From Pseudanabaena mucicola str. Chao 1806 (GTDB lineage Bacteria > Cyanobacteriota > Cyanobacteriia > Pseudanabaenales > Pseudanabaenaceae), in assembly GCF_030323025.1 (NCBI RefSeq), contig NZ_CP097329.1, forward strand, positions 1,891,001-1,955,000: DNA of 64,000 nt, written 5' to 3'. The notes beneath the pieces are model-generated. The model saw only the letters and a program-made list of their open reading frames with translations, searched no databases and was not told the DNA's origin. Positions 28,886 to 38,613 of the stretch are shown here, one piece after another. Position 1 is the first letter of the stretch; each line of letters begins with the position of its first letter. The position numbers and the translations under genes were made by a program.

Positions 28886-29057
28886 ATCGGATTATTGATG
28901 ACTGAACGAAGTCGAAGTAACTCTCATCTCATTTAGGACTGCTATAGCAATTCATTAATTGGGATTACGGTGCGTTATTTTGTATAAGTCGTATTGATAT
29001 TAATACCATTGTTGTACTATCGCTATGATAAGAAAAATACTAACTAAAGGACATCAA

Positions 29058-30107
29058 ATGAATGCAACCAACTTGGAGAGAATTGATCAATTAATTTTAG
29101 AAGGATATATCACCAAGCGTCCACATTCTAGTGGTGAGCTATTTATCTATAACTACACAGCCAAGGCACAGTACGATCATCTATGGACACCTGAAACCAT
29201 GCAATGTCGTGGCTTAATTTTAGATCATCATGGTGTGATTACTGCTCGACCTTTAATCAAATTTTTTAATTTACAAGAACACCAAGCATCTTTGCCCGCA
29301 GAACCTTTTGAAGTCTATGAGAAATTAGATGGATCATTAGGGATTCTTTATTGGTATCAAGATCAGCCCTATATTGCCTCTAGAGGTAGCTTTAATTCTG
29401 ATCAGGCTATTAAAGCTAATCAAATACTCTATTGTCTTTATGCAGACGCAATTTCCTTATTAGATCGTTCTCTTACATATTTATTTGAGATTATTTATCC
29501 TGCTAATCGGATTGTAGTTGATTATGGTGATTACGAAGCTTTAGTGCTGTTAGCTGTCATAGAAACTGCCTCAGGGCGTGAATATGCTATTGAGGACTTC
29601 CAGCATTTAGGTTTCCCAATTGCCAAAAAATATGATGGTTTAAAAGACTTAGAGTCAATCACTAAGCTTAATGAACAAAATCAAGAAGGCTTTGTGATTC
29701 GCTTTGAAAGTGGATTACGGCTAAAATTTAAGTTTGCGGATTATGTGAAGTTACATCGAGTGCTTACACAGGTAACAAGTAAGGTAATTTGGGAAATGTT
29801 GCGCGATCAAATTCCATTTGAAGATATTTTAGAGCATGTCCCTGATGAATTTTATGATTGGGTAAAGGAAACGAAAGCTATGCTCTTAGGTCAGTATCAA
29901 CAGATTGAGGATCAGGCTAAGGAAGATTTTGAGAGAATTGTATCTATAGTAGATCGCCACGATCGCAAGAAGACGGCGAAACATTTCTTAGCTTGCCAAA
30001 ATCATACAATTTTGTTCTCGATGCTTGATGGCAAAGATTATAGTGATTACATTTGGCGAACGATAAAACCCGCCCATGAGAAGCCTTTTACAGATGATGA
30101 TAATTAA
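29058..30107 (+). CDS. T4 Rnl1-like RNA ligase
   Basis: An ATP-dependent RNA ligase of about 349 residues. Nucleotidyltransferase motif I is EKLDGS with the predicted AMP-accepting Lys89. Upstream CRGLIL and downstream motif IV (EGFVIRF) and motif V (LKFKFADYVKLH, with the paired lysines) follow in the expected order. This is the T4 Rnl1 pattern, an enzyme that rejoins tRNAs cut in the anticodon loop. I chose the ATG at 29058 because AAAGGA lies just upstream; an ATG at 29025 lacks an SD. The T4 Pnkp homologue starts 93 bp downstream, giving a complete end-healing and sealing pair. Confidence 0.88.
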   Translation: MNATNLERIDQLILEGYITKRPHSSGELFIYNYTAKAQYDHLWTPETMQCRGLILDHHGVITARPLIKFFNLQEHQASLPAEPFEVYEKLDGSLGILYWYQDQPYIASRGSFNSDQAIKANQILYCLYADAISLLDRSLTYLFEIIYPANRIVVDYGDYEALVLLAVIETASGREYAIEDFQHLGFPIAKKYDGLKDLESITKLNEQNQEGFVIRFESGLRLKFKFADYVKLHRVLTQVTSKVIWEMLRDQIPFEDILEHVPDEFYDWVKETKAMLLGQYQQIEDQAKEDFERIVSIVDRHDRKKTAKHFLACQNHTILFSMLDGKDYSDYIWRTIKPAHEKPFTDDDN

Positions 30108-30200
30108 ACTTGAGTTCGATAGTGACATTTGTGCCGAGCAAAGTGCGGCGCAAATGGAGGGAAACTGATGTTAATTAAAAATAAATAGAGTAACCTTAAT

Positions 30201-31046
30201 ATGCTGACAGTCTATTTTACAATTGGGCTTCCTGCTTCAGGTAAATCTACATGGGCAAAGGAAAAAGTTAATAAATCTCCCAATATTATTAAGAGAGTCA
30301 ATAAGGATGAATTGAGAGCGATGCTAGACAATTCCTATTTCTCTAAAGGAAATGAGAAGTTTGTTCTGGATATCCAAGACGCAATTATTAAAGCGGCTCT
30401 GGAGAATGGTAAACATGTCATTGTCGATAATACGCATCTTGCTCCTAAACATGAAGCTAGAATTCGCAAATTAATCAATGGTTTAGCAGTTTTGGAAATA
30501 GTGGATTTTCGCCATGTACCGCTAGAAACTTGCATTGAGCGAGATTTAAAGAGGATGAACTCGGTTGGAGAGAAGGTGATTCGTGATATGTATAAACAAT
30601 TTATAGCCCCACCACGATCACCCAAGCCAGACTACAATCCTGAGCTACCCGAGGCAATTATTTGTGATTTAGATGGGACTCTGGCTTTGATTGGCGATCG
30701 CAGTCCCTATGATGCGGCAAACTGTGAGGGAGACATGGTGAATGAACCAGTGCGCTCTATTCTCAGTAAATCAGGCAAAGTGATTTTATTTGTATCAGGT
30801 CGCGAGGATAAATTTAAGCCTCAAACCTTAGCATGGCTTGAAAAGCACAATATCTCTTTTGATGCTATCTATATGCGAAAGTCGGGTGATTTGCGAAAGG
30901 ATAGTATTATCAAGAAGGAAATCTATGATGAATTTATTCTGGATAAATACAATGTCGCTTTTGTGCTGGACGATCGCGATCAAGTGGTGAGACTATGGCG
31001 AGATTTGGGCTTAACTTGCTTGCAGGTTGACTATGGCGATTTCTAA
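30201..31046 (+). CDS. pnkP: T4-type polynucleotide 5'-kinase/3'-phosphatase (Pnkp)
   Basis: A 281-residue bifunctional end-healing enzyme. The N-terminal P-loop kinase has GLPASGKS with Lys15 and Ser16 at the same positions as in T4 Pnkp, and Asp36/Arg39 in the place of T4's Asp35/Arg38. The C-terminal HAD phosphatase has CDLDGT (Asp156 and Asp158), VSGRED, RKSGDLRKD and LDDRDQVV. Even the C-terminal GDF ending matches T4. It would remove 2',3'-cyclic phosphate or 3'-phosphate and phosphorylate the 5'-OH before ligation. Both active sites look intact, and the domain order is that of the phage enzyme. Gene symbol is by analogy. Confidence 0.92.
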   Translation: MLTVYFTIGLPASGKSTWAKEKVNKSPNIIKRVNKDELRAMLDNSYFSKGNEKFVLDIQDAIIKAALENGKHVIVDNTHLAPKHEARIRKLINGLAVLEIVDFRHVPLETCIERDLKRMNSVGEKVIRDMYKQFIAPPRSPKPDYNPELPEAIICDLDGTLALIGDRSPYDAANCEGDMVNEPVRSILSKSGKVILFVSGREDKFKPQTLAWLEKHNISFDAIYMRKSGDLRKDSIIKKEIYDEFILDKYNVAFVLDDRDQVVRLWRDLGLTCLQVDYGDF

Positions 31047-33796: not shown

Positions 33797-33974
33797 AGTA
33801 ATGCACTGTTCAAGCAAGCAAGGTATAGAGTTTTTTTTCACCATCGAAGGCTGGTAAGCAAACAAATACTTCACTAATTGCTATAAAACTCAGATCTGGG
33901 GATTTCCAAAGTACATATACTGTGATATATTACCAACTGCTTTGTTAACTCAAAAAGTAAAAAAAGCATATTTT

Positions 33975-34061
33975 GGAGAGATGGCAGAGTGGTTGAATGC
34001 GTCTGACTCGAAATCAGATTTAGGGTCACACCTAACGGGAGTTCGAATCTCCCTCTCTCCG
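33975..34061 (+). tRNA. tRNA-Ser (anticodon CGA)
   Basis: An 87-nt cloverleaf: acceptor GGAGAGA (33975-33981) pairs with TCTCTCC (34054-34060), discriminator G. The anticodon stem TCTGA/TCAGA encloses the loop with CGA at 34009-34011. A long class II variable arm (GGGTCACACC region) and T-loop GTTCGAATC follow, all as for serine tRNA. The 3' CCA is not encoded. It reads UCG codons. Confidence 0.97.
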
Positions 34062-34076
34062 TACTAAAACTCTTAC

Positions 34077-34407: not shown

Positions 34408-35469
34408 TTAGTCTACACGGGCGATTACCGCAACAGGTCCACCGCCTGATGGTCCTTGATGTTCACTCCCCCCCGATACGTAGACCATTGGATCTTGGAC
34501 AATCGATGCTACTACTGCCGCAACTACAGCCCTAGCCATTCTTGTATGGTTAATATCCGAATCATCCATCATTGTATGTCTCCTTCCCAAAATTTCTCCC
34601 GATGGATCAGCTTCAGCTTTGACAAATATATTTACAATCCGATCGCTGGTTTGCCCTGTTGAAGCGATCGCCTTAATTACAGCTTGAGCGTCCAGAGCAT
34701 TTTGCATGACGCTATGACCAATGACAAAATTACTAGTTGATGTTGGAGCATTGCCCAATACTAAAATCTCACAATTGCGTAGCTCTACACCTGCGGAAGT
34801 GGAAGCGACAGTGGAGTATAAAGCATAATTTTGGCAGATATCTTCTGAACTGAGAGCAGCTAATTTAACTTCATCTAAGGCAACAGCAACACCTAGCGCT
34901 GAGGCTCCCCGTGAGTAACCCATTGACTGATAGCTACTTACAGATTTGTTCATAGAGTGAGAATCTTCGAGTAGGCGATCACGACTGGTGACTAATGGAC
35001 ATTTAATCTGTACAAAATGCACATCAGCTTTAGCCATTCCTGCGGATGCGATCGCTTCATTAACAGCTAGAGCCACTTCCTTTACCATTGTTAAGGAACC
35101 GATTTCCGCAGAAGTAAAATCACGAGTATGAATCACGCCCAAAGTCAAAGCCATCTTTGTTGGCATATTGGGTTGAGAAGGCTGACTCGTGAAAATTGTT
35201 AAATGGGGGCTTAAGACTCCTTCGGTTCCCCCAGACATCACATAGACGATGGACTCAGATTGTTCTTGACCCACAAAATTAGAGAGATAATTTTTTAGGG
35301 TTTGAACAGCAAAGCCTCTCGTGAAGTCATTAACACAGCCATTCCCTTCAGTTTTACCCAAAATTGCTACAATATCTTTAGGATTAATTTCGCCAGATGC
35401 GATCGCGGCTTTGAGTGCTGTAAGATCATCTGGGCTGTTTTGAGGAAGTTTATATACATCAACTTTCAT
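34408..35469 (-). CDS. Cyanuric acid hydrolase/barbiturase family ring-opening amidohydrolase
   Basis: A 353-residue member of the AtzD/TrzD/barbiturase family, which opens cyanuric acid or barbiturate rings using three Ser-Lys dyads in a three-fold-repeated fold. Visible family landmarks are YVMSGGTEGVLSPH near the first repeat, GYSRGASALGVAVAL in the second, and YVSGGSEHQGPSGGGPVA near the C-terminus. Substrate (cyanurate, barbiturate or another cyclic amide) cannot be read reliably. I start at the ATG at 35469; the longer upstream frame runs into repeat element B. The gene is solitary. Confidence 0.85.
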   Translation of the reverse strand: MKVDVYKLPQNSPDDLTALKAAIASGEINPKDIVAILGKTEGNGCVNDFTRGFAVQTLKNYLSNFVGQEQSESIVYVMSGGTEGVLSPHLTIFTSQPSQPNMPTKMALTLGVIHTRDFTSAEIGSLTMVKEVALAVNEAIASAGMAKADVHFVQIKCPLVTSRDRLLEDSHSMNKSVSSYQSMGYSRGASALGVAVALDEVKLAALSSEDICQNYALYSTVASTSAGVELRNCEILVLGNAPTSTSNFVIGHSVMQNALDAQAVIKAIASTGQTSDRIVNIFVKAEADPSGEILGRRHTMMDDSDINHTRMARAVVAAVVASIVQDPMVYVSGGSEHQGPSGGGPVAVIARVD

Positions 35470-35568
35470 GGTTTTTCGTTTGAATAGATTAGATGAATTG
35501 CTTCCAAGTAGCGTTAGGTTCCCTAACCAGATGATTTCAGATTCCCAACTTTGACATAAGTTAACATT

Positions 35569-35700
35569 AGTTCGGGTTAAGCTGGCAAATTTTAAAATCT
35601 CAAAAGTAAAAGCCTTGGTAAGCAAGACTTTTACTTTTGAGATTTGAGAGAGGGTTGGCAATGCAAACCCTCTCTCAAATCTCGTTTCAAATTATGTCGT
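35569..35700 (+). mobile_element. MITE-like element family 1, copy B (twin hairpins)
   Basis: About 132 bp beginning AGTTCGGGTTAAGCTGGCAA, with two imperfect hairpins centred near 35620 and 35660 and a CGTTTCAAATTAT end. The reverse complement of copy A (15679-15806) aligns along nearly its whole length. It lies upstream of the amidohydrolase gene within an otherwise empty ~720-bp gap. Confidence 0.65.
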
Positions 35701-35922
35701 AAGAGCTGAGGAGATCTGAGATATTTCACTCTATTTCACTCTTGTCGTTCATACCATTCTTCATTCCTTGCGGCTAAGGTGCGGTTATAAACTAAGCGAT
35801 CTCAACCCATTATCTTCCTCAGCAAAGTTTCCTACTCAGAAGTTGTCTAGAATCGTTACTTGAAGGCTTTTTGTGTCATGCTCACATTATAGTATCTATT
35901 CTGTGAAATAACATAGCCAATA

Positions 35923-36027
35923 TATAGCGGTTTTCAAATGAGTGTGTACTCATTTGAAAACAAAAAATCAGTCCCATTAAGAGTTTTGAGTTTTCATTTT
36001 GCCGTAGGCAAAATGAAAACCGCTATA
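35923..36027. mobile_element. Composite inverted-repeat element (TATAGCGGTTTTCA ends)
   Basis: 105 bp with 14-bp perfect terminal inverted repeats (35923-35936 and 36014-36027). Inside are two further hairpins, one based on TCAAATGAGT and one on TTTTCATTTTGCC. A shortened relative occurs at 54725-54757. It lies upstream of the carotenoid gene. Confidence 0.65.
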
Positions 36028-36191
36028 AAGCCGTCATAGAAGGAAGGAAGGGGCTACACAAATTTTTCGATTCAGGTCGTTGTTGCTGCTTGAAACTACG
36101 ATCCCCCGTTTTCTATACGGGGGATTATGTCACAATATATTAAGAACATTTATTACAAGATAACGACGGTAAGGGTCGAGCATAACAAAAC

Positions 36192-37595
36192 ATGAAAGCA
36201 GCGATTATTGGTGCAGGCTTAGCAGGTATGAGCACTGCCGTAGAACTCAGTGAGCAGGGCTATGAAGTAGAACTTTTTGAATCCCGTCCCTTTGTCGGCG
36301 GCAAGGTCAGCAGTTGGCTAGACAAAGATGGCAACCATATCGAGATGGGCTTGCATGTATTTTTTGGCTGCTATTATAACCTCTTCGCCTTAATGAAAAA
36401 AACGGGGGCTTTTGAACATCTCCGACTCAAGGAACATACACATATTTTTGTTAATCCTGGTGGACGACAAGCAGCCTTAGATTTTCGTAACTTTGGTGGT
36501 GCACCTTTTCATGGACTGAAAGCTTTTGTAACTACTGGACAATTACCTATTCAAGACAAGATTCAAAATGCGATCGCCCTAGCCCGTAGTCCCTTAATTC
36601 GTGGCTTGATCGATCACGTTGGTGCAATGAAGGAGATCCGAGCCCTTGACAACATCAGCTTCAAGGATTGGTTTATCTCGATGGGTGGCTCACAGGCAAG
36701 TCTCGATAGTATGTGGGATGCGATCGCCTACGGTTTAGGTTTCATCGACTGCGAAAATATTTCCGCAAGATGCATGCTCACCATCTTCCAATTCTTTGCA
36801 TCTCGCACCGAAGCTTCCATTTTGAGAATGCTCGAAGGTTCCCCCGACGTATTTCTACATCAACCAATTGTTAAGCATATTGAATCTAAAGGTGGAAAGT
36901 TCCATTTGCGTCGTGGTGTGCGTGAAGTTCTGTTTGAAGGGGAAGGCAAAGATACTCGTGTCACGGGCTTAATTGTCGGTAAAGAAGATGGCGAAGAAAT
37001 TGTTACTGCTGATGTCTATATTTGTGCCACGGATATTCCAGGGGTGAAGCGGATTATTCCTGAAAAATGGCGAGTATGGTCACAGTTTGACAATATCTAT
37101 AAGCTTGATGCTGTGCCAGTCATTACGGTGCAACTACGCTTTGATGGTTGGGTTACGGATATTGATAATCTGCTCTATGCTGTGAAAGTCGATTTCTCTA
37201 CCTTTGCAGATTTGGCGATTACCAGTCCCACTGATTATTACAAAGAAGGCGAAGGTTCTCTCTTGCAGTTAGTAATTACGCCTGCGGATGATTACATTAA
37301 GCTCAGCAATGAAGTGATCGTCGAGAAGATGATTGCTCAAGTGCATCAGATTTTCCCATCTTCTAATAAGTTGAATGTCATTTGGTCAAGTGTGGTCAAA
37401 CTCGCCCAGTCTCTCTATCGTGAAGCACCTGGTAAAGATCCCTTCCGTCCCGAGCAGGCAACTCCCGTGAAGAATTTCTTCCTTGCGGGTAGCTACACCA
37501 TGCAGGACTACATCGATAGTATGGAAGGTGCAACGCTATCGGGTAGGATGTGTGCAGCAGAAGTAATTAAGAGCAAGCAACTTGCTAAAGTCTAA
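36192..37595 (+). CDS. crtQ: Zeta-carotene desaturase (plant/cyanobacterial type)
   Basis: A 467-residue FAD-dependent desaturase converting zeta-carotene to lycopene in the thylakoid carotenoid pathway. The dinucleotide-binding motif [15 protein letters not shown] lies at residues 5-19, followed by [11 protein letters not shown] and [13 protein letters not shown], which is diagnostic of ZDS rather than phytoene desaturase (PDS). The C-terminal flavin motif [19 protein letters not shown] is intact. Length is close to other cyanobacterial enzymes. It is monocistronic; a GC hairpin follows directly. Confidence 0.93.
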
Positions 37596-37662: not shown

Positions 37663-38613
37663 ATACCAAAACACAAAGAAGAGGCAACAGATGATATAAG
37701 AAAAAAAGGAGAAAGAGGAGAAAAATGGCAGGGGTATATAGATTAGAAATAAGTGAAAGCGAAGCAAAACTAAAAGAGATGCTAGGACGGCAGAAAACAG
37801 GCTCAGACAAAGAACGAGTGCAAGTATTGTACTTATTGAAAAGCAAGCAAGTTGGAACAGTACAAGCCGCCGCTCAACTAATCGGGAGAAACCGTAGCAC
37901 AGTAGTACCTATAGAAATGTGCATGACTTGGTGCATTACCGAATGAAGGCAAAACCAAAGGTAGCCCGTCCCTATAGTGCTAATCAAAGCCAAGGGCAAT
38001 GCGAGGACTATAAAAAACTCTCGGATAACCTAGCCATGGTGGCTTGGTATGTCGTGACTGTGTTGGGATTAACGGGAAAAGTCCGTTTCTTTTGTCAAGA
38101 CGAAACAAGGATTGGTCTGAAAACCATCAGTGGTCGTAAAATAACGGCTCGTGGGGTCAAACCCAAGGCAAAAGTCCAGTGGCAGTTTCAGGCTACATGG
38201 TTATACGGTATCGCCGAACCTGCGACGGGAGAAAGCTTTTTCTATGAATTTAGTCATCTCAACACTGACTGTTTTCAAATATTTCTTGACCTTGTTTCAA
38301 AGAAATTTGCAGATATCTTAATTATCATGCAAGTTGATCAGGCTGGTTGTCATCGGGCTAAGCGTTTACGATTACCTCACAATATCATTTTGATATTTCA
38401 GCCTGCTCATTCTCCAGAATTAAACCCGATTGAGCGGGTTTGGCTACATTTGAAGCAAGGGTTGAGATTTTCTTTACCCAAAAATATGGATGAGTTGCGG
38501 CTTTTAGTCAAGAATCGTCTCTCCGAAATGTCTAAATCTGTAATTGCTTCTCTTGTCGGTAGAGATTCCATACTGGATCCTCTATCTGTTGCATCTCTTT
38601 TGTGATTTGGTAT
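37663..38613 (+). mobile_element. IS630-family insertion sequence, internally deleted
   Basis: Inverted ends begin ATACCAAAACACAAAGA on the left and, reversed, ATACCAAATCACAAAAGAG on the right. The ~950-bp element contains a disrupted IS630/Tc1-type transposase. The target is expected to be TA, but I cannot assign an unambiguous duplication. Confidence 0.8.
37725..38605 (+). pseudogene. IS630-family transposase, broken
   Basis: The 5' part (37725-37903) encodes the N-terminal helix-turn-helix with the family's MAGVYRLEISESEA start and IGRNRSTV. It then joins out of frame at about 37900 to a segment reading TYRNVHDLVHYRMKAKPK and the DDE catalytic domain (FFCQDETR, MQVDQAGCH, FQPAHSPELNPIERVW). 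Roughly 60-75 residues between the HTH and the catalytic domain are missing and the frame is shifted. The transposase cannot be made, although the catalytic acids remain in the 3' frame to 38605. Confidence 0.85.

Follow-up and report, generated by a model that had tools for sequence, protein, structure and literature searches.

Background

Cyanuric acid hydrolases (CAHs) of the AtzD/TrzD family are known mainly from the breakdown of man-made triazines. The available excerpt of PMC4051656 describes three dyads in the Azorhizobium enzyme (K40/S79, K156/S226, and K285/S333), with Ser226 proposed as the nucleophile and Lys156 as the base; it also reports that barbiturases carry Gln at the position of Arg188 and that barbiturate is a substrate of related family members. 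R194 and R324 of AtzD set CAHs apart from barbiturases, and the CAH motif is given as SGGxExQGPxGGGP (excerpt of PMC9118981). Pseudomonas ADP is described as unable to go beyond biuret and urea, which are dead ends there because the strain has no hydrolase for either (excerpt of PMC6219798), and a figure legend in PMC7948467 names the chemical oxidation of urate as a source of triuret and cyanuric acid.

Our literature search turned up no work on cyanobacterial CAH or biuret hydrolase, although an earlier mention is possible. Nothing was found that joins oxonic acid with cyanuric acid, nothing relevant by title on Pseudanabaena and uric acid, and nothing on topic under "ring-opening amidohydrolase". 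We analysed a 64-kb window (the whole stretch of DNA under study) from Pseudanabaena mucicola str. Chao 1806, whose closed 4.53 Mb genome is referred to below as the host genome.

The CAH gene and its catalytic residues

The CAH gene is an uninterrupted ORF on the minus strand, with its start ATG at 35469 and its stop at 34408, and the plus strand over the same interval is rich in stops. The features of the locus are:

33974-34062, plus strand: tRNA-Ser (cga), past the 3' end of the CAH gene, outside the pathway
34408-35469, minus strand: cyanuric acid hydrolase (CAH, AtzD/TrzD family), 353 aa (NF052395, PF09663, PDB 6bum)
35470-36191, no strand: intergenic region of 722 bp upstream of the CAH gene, with no GTAN8TAC box
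36192-37595, plus strand: flavin amine oxidoreductase, divergent neighbour of the CAH gene, outside the pathway

The encoded protein passes the NCBIfam CAH equivalog cut-off over its full length (NF052395, 478.4 bits against a cut-off of 360, E 1.2e-143, profile positions 1-363 of 364) and also matches TIGR02714 (420 bits) and PF09663 (472 bits, E 1.7e-141). Its top solved relative is the Moorella CAH (PDB 6bum, 404 bits, E 3.5e-120), and of the seven solved relatives five are CAH sequences, the other two being a barbiturase and a "ring-opening amidohydrolase". Nine of the ten relatives retrieved are named Pseudanabaena and one Phormidium tenue. In a metagenome-assembled genome of the same species, the CAH is identical at 352/353 residues, and 10/11 of the window neighbours are matched at 99-100%.

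Alignment to the Azorhizobium CAH located the following codons, with residue roles taken from the excerpts of PMC4051656 and, for the signature, PMC9118981:

35353-35355, minus strand: Lys39 (Lys40 of Azorhizobium CAH), repeat 1 dyad
35233-35235, minus strand: Ser79 (Ser79 of Azorhizobium CAH), repeat 1 dyad
35002-35004, minus strand: Lys156 (Lys156 of Azorhizobium CAH), repeat 2 dyad, proposed base
34909-34911, minus strand: Arg187 (Arg188 of Azorhizobium CAH; Gln in barbiturases)
34795-34797, minus strand: Ser225 (Ser226 of Azorhizobium CAH, proposed nucleophile)
34618-34620, minus strand: Lys284 (Lys285 of Azorhizobium CAH), repeat 3 dyad
34531-34533, minus strand: Arg313 (Arg314 of Azorhizobium CAH)
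34435-34476, minus strand: signature SGGxExQGPxGGGP, residues 332-345, beginning with Ser332 of the repeat 3 dyad

All three dyads (K39/S79, K156/S225, and K284/S332) and all three substrate arginines (R51, R187, and R313) are kept, as is E229, the counterpart of Glu230, so that 10/10 catalytic or substrate positions are retained. The motif reads SGGSEHQGPSGGGP and fits the published consensus; together with R187 and R313 it places the protein with the CAHs. Barbiturase identity was rejected, since Arg187 stands where barbiturases have Gln. The ten positions are identical in all 14 copies of the Pseudanabaena clade (the window, L001-L010, L117, L118, and L131), and 13 of these copies match the motif, the exception being L007, which ends in GGGA. 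Comparisons of the window gene with the other copies gave dN/dS values of 0.055-0.091 in 9/13 cases, one of them near saturation (dS 2.1), and the remaining four were saturated. The low dN/dS, with the positions and motif kept across the clade, indicates that the gene has been maintained. By its sequence, the window protein is an ordinary CAH.

The original prediction had placed a cyanuric acid hydrolase/barbiturase homologue at exactly the interval of this ORF, naming no strand, in a cyanobacterium. The location and the cyanobacterial setting are borne out by the minus-strand ORF and by its Pseudanabaena and Phormidium tenue relatives, the same-species copy included. The CAH half of the family name stands, and the barbiturase half is disfavoured by the Arg. 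The three repeats with Ser-containing motifs carry every named Ser, Lys, and Arg position, with no catalytic Ser or Lys lost on alignment, which supports the suggestion that the enzyme may be active.

The neighbours of the CAH gene are the tRNA-Ser, a 670-aa ORF without a Pfam match, and the flavin amine oxidoreductase, which we take to be zeta-carotene desaturase-like. BiuH and TrtA queries found no match in the 64-kb window at E<=0.01, nor did the AtzE, AtzF, AtzG, and AtzH/HpxZ queries from a Pseudomonas plasmid. Elsewhere in the window, a 228-aa DDE_3 transposase ORF with a GTG start lies at 37919-38605 on the plus strand, 0.3 kb past the gene divergent from CAH. At 29025-31046 on the plus strand, a gene resembling T4 RNA ligase 1 (PF09511) stands immediately before a polynucleotide kinase gene with a PNKP-type phosphatase domain (PF13671 and PF25109), a pair that resembles an RNA-repair pair.

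Partner genes in the host genome

Two isochorismatase-family genes were found at 3.48 Mb of the host genome, in a cluster at 3480440-3484022 (G000:C1) with the order biuH, nucleoside/sugar-type ABC ATPase, cupin, and trtA-like gene. The biuH product (3480440-3481123) exceeds the cut-off of the BiuH model (NF050097, 411.7 bits against 370), and 174/222 of its residues (78%) are identical to those of Rhizobium leguminosarum BiuH (6azo). All 16 positions checked are kept, among them D27, K133, and C166, equivalent to the Asp36/Lys142/Cys175 triad, and F32, K136, and Q206, equivalent to Phe41, Lys145, and Gln215 (roles from the excerpts of PMC5806882 and PMC7948467). The trtA-like gene (3483354-3484022) scores 270 bits to the solved TrtA versus 187 to BiuH, and 127/209 aligned columns are identical with 6xix. 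Its product keeps 14/14 checked TrtA positions, including the triad D24/K129/C162, and carries F35, N41, A134, E160, Y187, and I205 at the six positions where TrtA differs from BiuH (roles from the excerpt of PMC7948467); it is thus TrtA-type by residues. It reaches 237 bits against the BiuH model, below the cut-off of 370, and no TrtA model was among its NCBIfam matches. The cluster ATPase passed none of the displayed NCBIfam cut-offs.

Further away, a BMP-type binding protein gene (PF02608) and two permease-like ORFs lie at 3.64 Mb, the latter matching B6-type ABC permease models below cut-off. Urease alpha is present in the host genome. The urate genes hpxO-uraD-puuE lie 0.11 Mb from the CAH gene, all three above their NCBIfam cut-offs, and no uraH was seen in the 19-kb stretch around them. 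Amidase-family searches of the closed genome found no allophanate hydrolase: the sole PF01425 gene found is gatA (628 bits, cut-off 481), and the same gene reaches 213 bits against a cut-off of 511 for AtzF and 293 against 461 for AtzE.

A solitary CAH without partners was therefore rejected, since the genome searches found partner genes. The original prediction of a gene standing alone holds for the 64-kb window and fails for the genome, which has BiuH and the TrtA-like gene at 3480440-3484022. What it drew from the missing neighbours proved wrong for biuret hydrolase and has so far been right for allophanate hydrolase.

A formamidase-like ORF seen by eye beside biuH in another cyanobacterial genome (G008) was dropped as a candidate, as the host genome gives just 29-30% matches to it. 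Unlike the window's genome, two CAH-bearing cyanobacteria outside Pseudanabaena, G005 and G170, encode AtzE-family amidohydrolases above the cut-off of 461 bits (L041 1501-2760, 702 bits; L042 1501-2760, 694 bits).

Linkage to urate genes and placement of the CAH gene

In Pseudanabaena sp. ABRG5-3, the CAH orthologue sits on a 134,662-bp plasmid where the annotation puts it after puuE (allantoinase) and ahead of uraH, in the order hpxO, uraD, puuE, CAH, a gamma-glutamylcyclotransferase gene on the opposite strand, uraH, and a porin gene. The same order is present in Phormidium tenue FACHB-1050, Pseudanabaena SR411, P. mucicola FACHB-723, and one further genome (G390). The CAH gene thus lies inside the urate operon (hpxO-uraD-puuE-CAH-uraH) in 5/14 CAH-bearing genomes of the genus sample and outside it in the other 9, the window's genome included. 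In the CAH tree the five operon copies group together, weakly supported (80/49), and under midpoint rooting the deepest Pseudanabaena copies are non-operon ones; taken together, these suggest that the operon state may have arisen in a single event.

The neighbours of the non-operon copies mostly differ between lineages (~6.5 kb on each side, ORFs of at least 90 aa). Three upstream genes near CAH are common to L003 and L004 and two downstream gene families to L002 and L003; the window, G395, L008, L009, and L010 have no common neighbours except an ABC ATPase family found in the window and L010. The 102 bp directly upstream of CAH are 86% alike in L002 and L003, although the upstream genes differ. 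From the differing neighbours and this match, the gene appears to have moved repeatedly, and in at least one case to have taken its promoter region along.

Several looser arrangements were also observed. CAH lies ~7 kb from a BMP gene in G193, with other genes between, and ~6 kb from an 8-oxoguanine deaminase gene in P. cinerea; we regard both as weak hints. A Pseudanabaena genome without a CAH match (G392, L142 2880-4411) keeps the urate operon order, and the place of CAH is taken there by small ORFs that by eye resemble pieces of a histidine kinase and a response regulator.

The sequence GTAN8TAC, which we take to be an NtcA-type box, was absent within 350 bp upstream of CAH in all 13 copies examined. 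NtcA control was set aside as a candidate, and for want of the box we make no claim of nitrogen control for CAH. The box occurred within 350 bp upstream of hpxO in 3/12 copies, against a background of 0.05 per 350 bp; across the window there were 10 matches versus a mean of 7.0, near chance.

Phylogeny and plasmid copies

The CAH tree contained 14 Pseudanabaena-clade rows, one G005 copy, G170, a divergent G005 paralogue, and eight outside rows (Moorella, Azorhizobium, and six plasmid sequences). The cyanobacterial CAHs, from three families, form one clade (98/89) apart from the eight other rows, and identity among the Pseudanabaena copies goes down to 75%. With so few outside sequences, the tree does not tell the origin of the gene. 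The divergent G005 paralogue falls outside the cyanobacterial clade and lacks several active-site residues.

This second G005 gene (L049 2770-3900) was observed beside the normal one. Its C-terminal motif is broken, and it has Gln, Ile, Lys, Asn, and Lys at the positions of K40, S79, R188, K285, and R314. Nearby are an ABC binding protein gene and ORFs that look GlcG-like and GntR-like by eye. Judging from these replacements, it possibly acts on a different substrate.

In a plasmid collection, 66 of the 132 records with a CAH match were typed as conjugative. A CAH ~54% identical to P0001 occurs on Citrobacter, Klebsiella, Enterobacter, and Leclercia plasmids, several of which come from showers or clinical samples.

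Co-occurrence across genomes

Among 26 Pseudanabaena genomes, CAH was found in 14, biuH in 24, urease alpha in 24, and uraD in 21, and all 14 CAH-bearing genomes have biuH, urease, and uraD. The association of CAH with uraD is moderately unlikely by chance (p 0.012) and that with biuH gives p 0.20, kinship being ignored in both.

In a phylum sample of 386 cyanobacterial genomes, CAH was present in 5, biuH in 13, and uraD in 36. The CAH count excludes a match in G283 below the family cut-off, and the biuH count takes matches above 400 bits, weaker query matches being excluded, which removed a broken copy in G215. All five CAH genomes fall within both the biuH and the uraD sets, and 12/13 biuH genomes have uraD. 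Counted by genus (142 genera), the four CAH genera are all among the 11 biuH genera (p 2e-5) and among the 30 uraD genera (p 0.0017), and uraD was present in one or more sampled members of each of the 11 biuH genera (p 7e-9). The CAH of G008 is a remnant, ~2 kb past a biuH-ATPase-trtA run, and that of G170 has a frame change near its end; with these two omitted, the by-genus CAH values weaken to p 0.0055 for biuH and 0.043 for uraD. Since uraD and biuH are likewise found where CAH is absent, CAH is an optional addition.

Discussion

We consider it probable (roughly 0.7) that the window encodes an active CAH serving nitrogen salvage, the likeliest source being urate oxidation products, with biuret and then urea as intermediates. 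In the predicted reaction, Ser225, activated by Lys156, would attack a ring carbonyl of cyanuric acid held by the three arginines; ring opening would give carboxybiuret, which would lose CO2 to yield biuret, a decarboxylation we take to be uncatalysed. BiuH would then convert biuret to allophanate and ammonia, and the TrtA-like hydrolase would feed in triuret as carboxybiuret, an intermediate common to both routes. Because no allophanate hydrolase gene was found, allophanate would most likely decarboxylate to urea, which urease would split; urease used in this manner would depend on an uncatalysed step. Since the host has genes for hydrolysis of both biuret and urea, a route from biuret that dispenses with allophanate hydrolase is plausible.

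In G170, an RraA/aldolase-decarboxylase-like gene (L050 9461-11073, models below cut-off) lies on the same strand as CAH and overlaps its start by 4 bases, making it a candidate carboxybiuret decarboxylase by position only.

On the most economical interpretation, cyanuric acid and triuret would be by-products of urate that CAH and TrtA, respectively, convert to carboxybiuret, which would become biuret for BiuH; the urate operon and the co-occurrence support this. The same linkage to the operon, with the co-occurrence with biuH and uraD, lends support to the earlier suggestion that a natural cyclic amide serves as a nitrogen source. More tentatively, and at somewhat less than even odds, we propose that in cyanobacteria CAH, TrtA, and BiuH form a side branch of urate degradation that cleans up and salvages nitrogen: urate that escapes HpxO would be oxidised by light and reactive oxygen in a photosynthetic cell to triuret and cyanuric acid, and its nitrogen recovered through biuret and urea. 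Several observations count against our main reading of urate-derived nitrogen salvage: CAH lies outside the urate operon in nine of 14 genomes, the window's among them, and the operon state may reflect one event; no NtcA-type box precedes CAH; urease would depend on an uncatalysed step; no uraH was seen beside the host's hpxO-uraD-puuE; biuH and uraD also occur where CAH is absent; and two of the five CAH genes in the phylum sample are a remnant or frame-changed.

Three other explanations were weighed. The substrate could be mostly cyanuric acid of industrial origin, derived from triazine herbicides or from chlorine stabiliser in fresh water, with the gene acquired by recent horizontal transfer, as the plasmid-borne CAH genes of other bacteria (66/132 matching records conjugative), the several locations within Pseudanabaena, and the plasmid copy of ABRG5-3 might suggest. 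We find this unlikely, given that CAHs from three cyanobacterial families fall into a single clade (98/89), that the genomic linkage is to urate genes, and that searches of the host genome found neither AtzE nor AtzF; the 75% identity and low dN/dS also point, as an undated estimate, to an age beyond recent herbicides. That the enzyme opens another ring of purine breakdown (urate-, hydantoin-, or barbiturate-like) in place of cyanuric acid is likewise improbable: the protein retains the CAH motif and 10/10 of the positions compared with a proven CAH, Arg stands where barbiturases have Gln, the known steps are already covered in the operon by HpxO, UraH, UraD, and PuuE, and BiuH and TrtA fit the product of a CAH, not that of a barbiturase. 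In favour of such a ring, five genomes have CAH immediately behind puuE in their urate operon, and the family has barbiturate-active members (excerpt of PMC4051656).

It is very improbable that the gene is a non-functional leftover of a lost pathway, since the window CAH is full length and under purifying selection and biuH and urease are kept in 14/14 CAH-bearing Pseudanabaena of the genus sample; the G008 remnant, and the G170 frame change, whether real or an assembly error, are the observations that agree with such decay.

A CAH gene within a urate operon hints at a natural source of cyanuric acid, a compound whose presence is usually blamed on herbicides and pool chemicals, and together with the co-occurrence of CAH, biuH, and uraD it allows a natural role for the family to be put to the test. 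If true, the urate-salvage branch would explain why CAH sits inside the urate operon and would give a herbicide-breakdown family a natural role older than industrial triazines.

Comparison with known systems

The window CAH shares its motif and dyads with the Moorella thermoacetica enzyme (PDB 6bum; 209/348 aligned residues identical, 60%) and with Pseudomonas AtzD (PDB 4bvq; 175/349 aligned residues identical). The barbiturase PDB 5hwe belongs to the same family (243 bits) and differs in that barbiturases have Gln at the Arg188 position, where the window protein has Arg. On a Pseudomonas plasmid, atzD shares its operon with atzG-atzE-hpxZ-atzF, whereas the window CAH is solitary and the predicted Pseudanabaena route would run through biuret without atzE or atzF.

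The same gene set occurs in a plasmid cluster of R. leguminosarum holding a BMP transporter, formamidase, biuH, atzD, a nucleoside-type ATPase, trtA, and cupin, its biuH and ATPase having been located by tblastn, as they carry no annotation. Identity to the host proteins is 46% for CAH, 78% for BiuH (158-residue match), 55% for the ATPase, 57% for TrtA, and 47% for the cupin. In R. leguminosarum the set is in one cluster, CAH included, whereas the host genome has it in at least three places, with CAH outside the biuH-trtA cluster. In the triuret/biuret clusters of nitrifiers, biuH, trtA, and bmpA-nupABC occur together, and purine-derived triuret and biuret are proposed as substrates; according to the excerpt of PMC12625717, those nitrifier genomes have no reported atzD and some have atzF, while the Pseudanabaena host has CAH and atzF was not found in it. 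The pathway layout in Pseudanabaena, with scattered genes, urease present, and no allophanate hydrolase found, is a variant, and the enzyme itself is ordinary.
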